DNA from: Oryzias latipes
Lineage: Eukaryota; Chordata; Actinopteri; Beloniformes; Adrianichthyidae
Assembly (NCBI RefSeq): GCF_002234675.1
Contig: NC_019866.2
Coordinates: 21,790,802-21,854,801 of the forward strand
Direction: 5' to 3'
Length of the DNA: 64,000 nt
Shown: in pieces, positions 27,378-48,310 of the stretch
How positions within the stretch are numbered: the first letter of the stretch is position 1
Layout: every line of letters starts with the position of its first letter
Notes under the pieces: generated by a model
What the model was told of the DNA's origin: nothing
Seen by the model: the letters and a program-made list of their open reading frames with translations, nothing else
Database searches by the model: none
Position numbers and translations under genes: made by a program

Positions 27378-48310
<20,933 letters not shown>

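Follow-up and report, generated by a model that had tools for sequence, protein, structure and literature searches.

Beside the nucleotide pocket of the myosin motor lies a surface loop, loop 1. In MYH10, MYH14 and MYH11 this loop is extended by exons that are alternative (PMC3535348, PMC10480317, PMC3938199). A first-pass annotation of a 64-kb stretch of the Oryzias latipes genome (G000:C8:21790802-21854801, hereafter the window) proposed that a fish myh9 gene carries such an exon too, 21 nt long and adding SSSILSH to the motor. Is this segment an exon, is it optional, and how does it relate to the loop-1 exons of the other type-II myosins?

The myh9 gene of the window is complete, with the ATG at 27378 and the stop codon ending at 48310, and it encodes 1955 aa without the insert. 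Its identity with human MYH9 is 80.7% over 1952 aligned columns. When the motor stretch, including the insert, was queried against solved structures (phmmer), the best matches were Myosin-9 (9ihl with 365.5 bits and 9syu with 363.4 bits), above the best Myosin-11 (353.9 bits), Myosin-10 (345.2 bits) and Myosin-14 (328.8 bits); this sequence comparison places the gene nearer MYH9 than MYH10, MYH11 or MYH14. A thioredoxin-domain gene is located upstream, which we take to parallel the position of TXN2 near MYH9 in human, and a mitochondrial carrier gene and a ribosomal-S2-family gene are located downstream. No Rfam family matched the window at gathering thresholds, and no relative of the motor exons was confirmed in the viral contigs searched. 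The features around loop 1 are the following:

27378..48310, plus strand: coding region of myh9, modelled as 39 exons
30206..30299, plus strand: upstream coding exon, from the GESGAGKT P-loop to KKDQ, donor CAG/GTCAGT
30300..33050, plus strand: loop-1 intron, 2751 nt, containing the candidate mini-exon
30651..30671, plus strand: acceptor of the mini-exon including its pyrimidine tract, ttctctctttcccatcaacag, 6.3 bits
30672..30692, plus strand: candidate loop-1 mini-exon, 21 nt, SSSILSH, phase 0 at both ends, proposed from its sequence, duplicate-gene conservation and a paralogue profile
30693..30698, plus strand: 5' splice site of the mini-exon, GTGAGT, 5.0 bits
33051..33143, plus strand: downstream coding exon, beginning GELEKQ

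Splice sites were scored with a simple matrix of base frequencies, and the scan took as candidates the AG..GT segments 6-60 nt long that are open in phase 0. Bases 30672-30692 read AGCAGCTCGATCCTGTCACAT, encode SSSILSH, and stand between ttctctctttcccatcaacag and gtgagtgcac. They lie exactly between Q202 and G203 of the protein; this is the 25/50-kDa junction, with the P-loop exon on the upstream and the GELE exon on the downstream side. The two flanking exons join in phase 0 with or without them. Sequence, frame and splice sites are observed directly, and they are as the first-pass annotation had described them (a 21-nt phase-0 segment with a good acceptor and a GTGAGT donor at Q202/G203).

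Of the 38 acceptors modelled for the gene, 8 score at least as high as that of the mini-exon, and of the 38 donors, 10 do so. Within the 2751-nt intron the mini-exon is the top of 145 candidates, with a lead of 5.4 bits over the runner-up, which shares its donor. Across both strands of the 64-kb window no other candidate has both splice sites as strong; the summed splice score of one segment (14388-14405) is above that of the mini-exon. Dinucleotide shuffles of the intron contained a segment with both sites as strong in 2 of 300 cases, and one with an equally high summed score in 7 of 300. The open reading frame was dropped as evidence, because a 138-aa frame runs open across 30498-30914 anyway. 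As a separate observation, the donor of the upstream exon (30300-30305, CAG/GTCAGT) carries C at position +3, which is uncommon in the matrix used, and the same donor in the myh9 copy on C1, described below, is GTACGT, which also contains a C.

The motor segment was compared with the fish's own genome (734 Mb, 25 contigs), giving 76 matches, of which many were weak or of muscle type. Eight matching regions were retrieved, and the loop-1 intron was read in six paralogues (L009-L014). Apart from these, C24 carries a sarcomeric-type myosin heavy chain that appears to have no introns and has a single 1940-aa open frame (L001/L016, G000:C24, about 12.07 Mb, minus strand); 1590 aa of this frame are seen in L016, and it looks like an intact muscle-myosin retrogene.

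One of the six paralogues, L010 on C1, is a second myh9, its best solved-structure match being Myosin-9 with 550.6 bits, versus 519.1 bits for the best Myosin-11. Its loop-1 intron holds a 21-nt phase-0 exon, GGCAGCGCAGTGTTGTTACAT, which encodes GSAVLLH and has the donor CAT/GTGAGT, the same end as the window exon:

L010 2768-2788 (G000:C1, about 2803267-2803287): loop-1 exon GSAVLLH of the second myh9, acceptor 10.0 bits, stronger than that of the window exon

This exon is the top of 52 candidates in its intron, with 15.0 bits and the next distinct donor at 3.9. The two exons are identical at 14 of 21 bases and differ at four of seven residues (window/L010: S/G, S/S, S/A, I/V, L/L, S/L, H/H). 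The best blastn match between the two myh9 loop-1 introns (2751 versus 1304 nt) covers the exon and its splice sites (35 nt, 74%, E 0.010). Furthermore, the exon plus donor (27 nt) of each gene is the best 27-mer match in the intron of the other and, shifted registers of the exon pair aside, the only other 27-mer pair with at least 20 identities is a T-rich run. Among the 35 introns shared by the two genes, the loop-1 pair has the lowest E-value (the next is 0.070), and it is the only pair with top candidates above 10 bits. In 4000 shuffles of the L010 intron, one 21-nt segment reached the score of the window exon, two reached its identity, and none reached both.

Because the remaining intron sequence of the two myh9 genes no longer aligns convincingly, the 21 nt and their splice sites appear to have been kept by selection, as judged from the duplicate gene of one species. 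Among its checks the first-pass annotation had proposed conservation of the segment in other fish; this check, run here within the genome on the duplicate myh9, was passed, and the matching 21-nt exon in the corresponding intron is a direct observation.

Among the other paralogues, L011 and L013 gave Myosin-11 and Myosin-10, respectively, as best matches in the solved-structure (PDB) searches, while L012 (myh11, on C8) and L014 (myh10, on C1) were assigned by sequence resemblance only. For L009, Myosin-10 was the best and Myosin-14 the lowest among the 20 matches listed. By those assignments, myh9, myh10 and myh11 are each present once on C1 and once on C8, as the teleost genome duplication would be expected to leave them, and MYH9b, MYH10l and MYH11 are listed among the myosins arising from it (PMC8228858). 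The rockfish MYH9a and MYH9b have 1968 and 1976 aa (PMC8228858) and the insert-less medaka myh9 has 1955 aa; we draw no conclusion from these lengths.

In the loop-1 introns of the two myh11 copies, the top candidates encode QQSGSQLAY (4.6 bits, next 2.2, of 106 candidates) and QQAGSLAY (9.0 bits, next 8.9, of 76), both in phase 0 and then followed by GTGAGT. Their sequence identifies them as the SM-B exon of the fish myh11 copies; known exons are thus recovered by the scan, with narrower margins than it gives in myh9. In the copy on C8 the exon (L012, about 3877-3900) begins CAGCAGCAG after ..TGCAG, and tandem acceptors could give forms of 24, 21 or 18 nt (QQAGSLAY, QAGSLAY, AGSLAY).

Both myh10 copies (L013 on C8, and L014 on C1 in reverse complement) contain a 30-nt segment, PESPKAAKQQ / PESPKAFKLQ, followed by GCAAGT, which resembles the mammalian 10-aa B1 insert. 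The copy on C1 also has an 18-nt candidate, SGLLFY/GTGAGT, third of 142, and no 18-nt exon was found in the loop-1 intron of the copy on C8. By their lengths, the two kinds of segment fit the published 10-aa and 16-aa (10+6) B1 forms. The loop-1 intron of L009 gave a weak candidate, LSFQY, second of 87. GTGAGT also follows the exons or candidates of L009, L010, L011, L012 and L014.

An earlier profile was made of four exons, two of them chosen via a [TC]A[TC]/GTRAG pattern set after the window exon was known. The profile was then restricted to the last 15 nt and the donor of the two myh11 loop-1 exons; with this change, the window exon led the next window site by 1.4 bits, compared with 6.8 before, and the L009 candidate dropped out. 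With the myh11-only profile, the window segment is first across both strands of the window (12.5, next 11.1). Two further exons come first in their own introns, that of L010 (11.4, next 3.9) and SGLLFY of myh10 (14.7, next 9.4). When the introns within each myh9 gene are compared, that of loop 1 ranks first of 38 in one and first of 40 in the other; no exon was found by this profile in L013 (myh10, C8) or L009. The window exon also shows the ending of the known members, L-x-[Y/H] followed by GTGAGT.

The resemblance to the myh11 and myh10 exons is observed directly, and it bears out the link that the first-pass annotation had drawn to the loop-1 inserts of other type-II myosins. From the ranking of the myh9 and myh10 exons by a myh11 profile, we infer that the myh9 exon descends from one predating the separation of the MYH9, MYH10 and MYH11 genes. 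It would then represent, in myh9, the ancestral loop-1 exon from which the 18-nt exon of MYH10 and the SM-B exon of MYH11 also derive, and both teleost myh9 duplicates would have retained it.

The window exon can be compared with the named motor exons of this family. The SM-B exon of MYH11 is placed at the same motor site, just before GELE, and also encodes 7 aa; it differs in belonging to the smooth-muscle paralogue, in its largely different residues (QGPSFAY in human, PMC3938199, and QGPSFSY in chicken, PDB 1br2) and in ending in Y versus H. The B1 inserts of MYH10 (NM IIB), of 10 or 16 aa (PMC10480317), are at the same site as well, but that gene has two successive loop-1 exons, and the myh9 scan, which considered GT donors, gave the counterpart of the second only. 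The C1 insert of MYH14 (NM IIC) is likewise alternative in loop 1, but has 8 aa and belongs to a different gene; it confers higher motility and ATPase (PMC10480317). The A2 exon of mouse and human MYH9 is an alternative motor exon of the same gene (PMC10480317), but it lies in loop 2 and has 21 aa, 63 nt and phase 1. In a general intron scan, neither fish myh9 showed evidence of a loop-2 (A2-like) exon; the top candidates, 6 and 60 nt long, do not resemble each other.

The first-pass annotation also knew of no loop-1 insert in mammalian MYH9. A mouse tissue RT-PCR screen agrees: it cites earlier reports of loop-1 splicing for NM IIB and IIC and none for IIA, and found none in mouse NM IIA (Myh9), while allowing for rare or cell-specific forms (PMC10480317). 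However, two reviews mention a MYH9 loop-1 insert (PMC11335295, PMC7566000), the former giving three references for it, Li et al. 2008 among them. No report of a loop-1 exon in fish myh9 was found among the titles and abstracts searched, which covered part of the matches.

Concerning regulation, none of seven splicing-factor motif classes is enriched in the window loop-1 intron, where the Rbfox motif TGCATG is absent. In the L010 loop-1 intron, TGCATG occurs 3 times versus 0.26 expected (reached in 1% of 100 shuffles), and the MBNL-type motif YGCY 40 times versus 29.3 expected (0 of 100 shuffles). Over the seven classes, no enrichment is common to both introns. Since the excess of TGCATG and YGCY is confined to the C1 intron, the two myh9 copies, on C1 and C8, may be regulated differently.

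Inclusion of the exon would lengthen surface loop 1, next to the nucleotide pocket at the 25/50-kDa junction, by SSSILSH; skipping would leave the reading frame unchanged. By analogy with the inserts of NM2s and smooth-muscle myosin, the included form would release ADP faster and be a faster NM IIA motor. Indeed, an extended loop 1 is reported to speed ADP release and sliding of NM2s (PMC11335295); motility is higher with the NM IIC insert, and the increases for NM IIB are only small (PMC10480317). The kinetic consequence is uncertain, because the human MYH11 loop-1 insert had no detectable effect (PMC3938199). By this analogy, inclusion of the exon would be expected to give a faster NM IIA; our confidence is moderate for the direction of the effect and low for its size.

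How else could the segment be explained? In a long intron, a pseudo-exon can arise by chance, and shuffled introns do contain a site of equal quality in 2 to 7 of 300 cases, depending on the measure. A chance origin was judged unlikely on the shuffles, the both-strand window scan and the comparison with other introns; set against the matching exon in the corresponding intron of the duplicate, with score and identity never reached together in 4000 shuffles, and against the first rank given by the myh11 loop-1 exon profile, we regard it as very improbable. It is also quite improbable, in our judgement, that the segment is a relic, homologous to an exon of the ancestral type-II myosin gene and no longer spliced in. 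The four residue differences in seven between the myh9 copies, and mouse Myh9 in which the RT-PCR screen found no loop-1 splicing (PMC10480317), would agree with such decay; yet frame, length, phase and strong splice sites are kept in both copies, while the remaining intron no longer aligns convincingly.

The exon could instead be genuine but constitutive or nearly so, with no splice switch, and fish NM IIA would then simply have a longer loop 1. This is unlikely, though its splice sites, in the upper part of the range of the gene, and the 10.0-bit acceptor of L010 speak for it. Against it, exons this short are usually regulated, and skipping preserves the frame. Furthermore, the counterparts in MYH10, MYH14 and MYH11 are alternative (PMC3535348, PMC10480317, PMC3938199). 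Considering both modes of use, cassette or constitutive, 30672-30692 is very probably a functional exon, and it is probably a real alternative cassette mini-exon of fish myh9. Its inclusion in mRNA, its alternative use and its tissue of use are what we infer from the genome; the exon of the duplicate gene and the resemblance to the paralogue exons support the candidate SSSILSH insert as it was first proposed.

The reading of the segment as an optional exon beside the ATP site suggests that the fish is able to make a re-tuned NM IIA. For its wider history, we lean towards a scenario in which the ancestor of MYH9, MYH10 and MYH11 had the mini-exon, teleosts kept it in both myh9 genes, giving a regulated, faster "NM IIA1", and in mammals it was lost or is hardly ever used. 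If so, the loop-1 exon would be older than the MYH9/10/11 split, and its absence from mouse Myh9 would be a loss, the consequence of which is testable by deleting the exon in fish. Insert-less fish myh9 expression constructs would represent one isoform only and, if the fish myh9 genes do have the exon, the speed of NM IIA would be tunable by splicing in vertebrates with good genetics.
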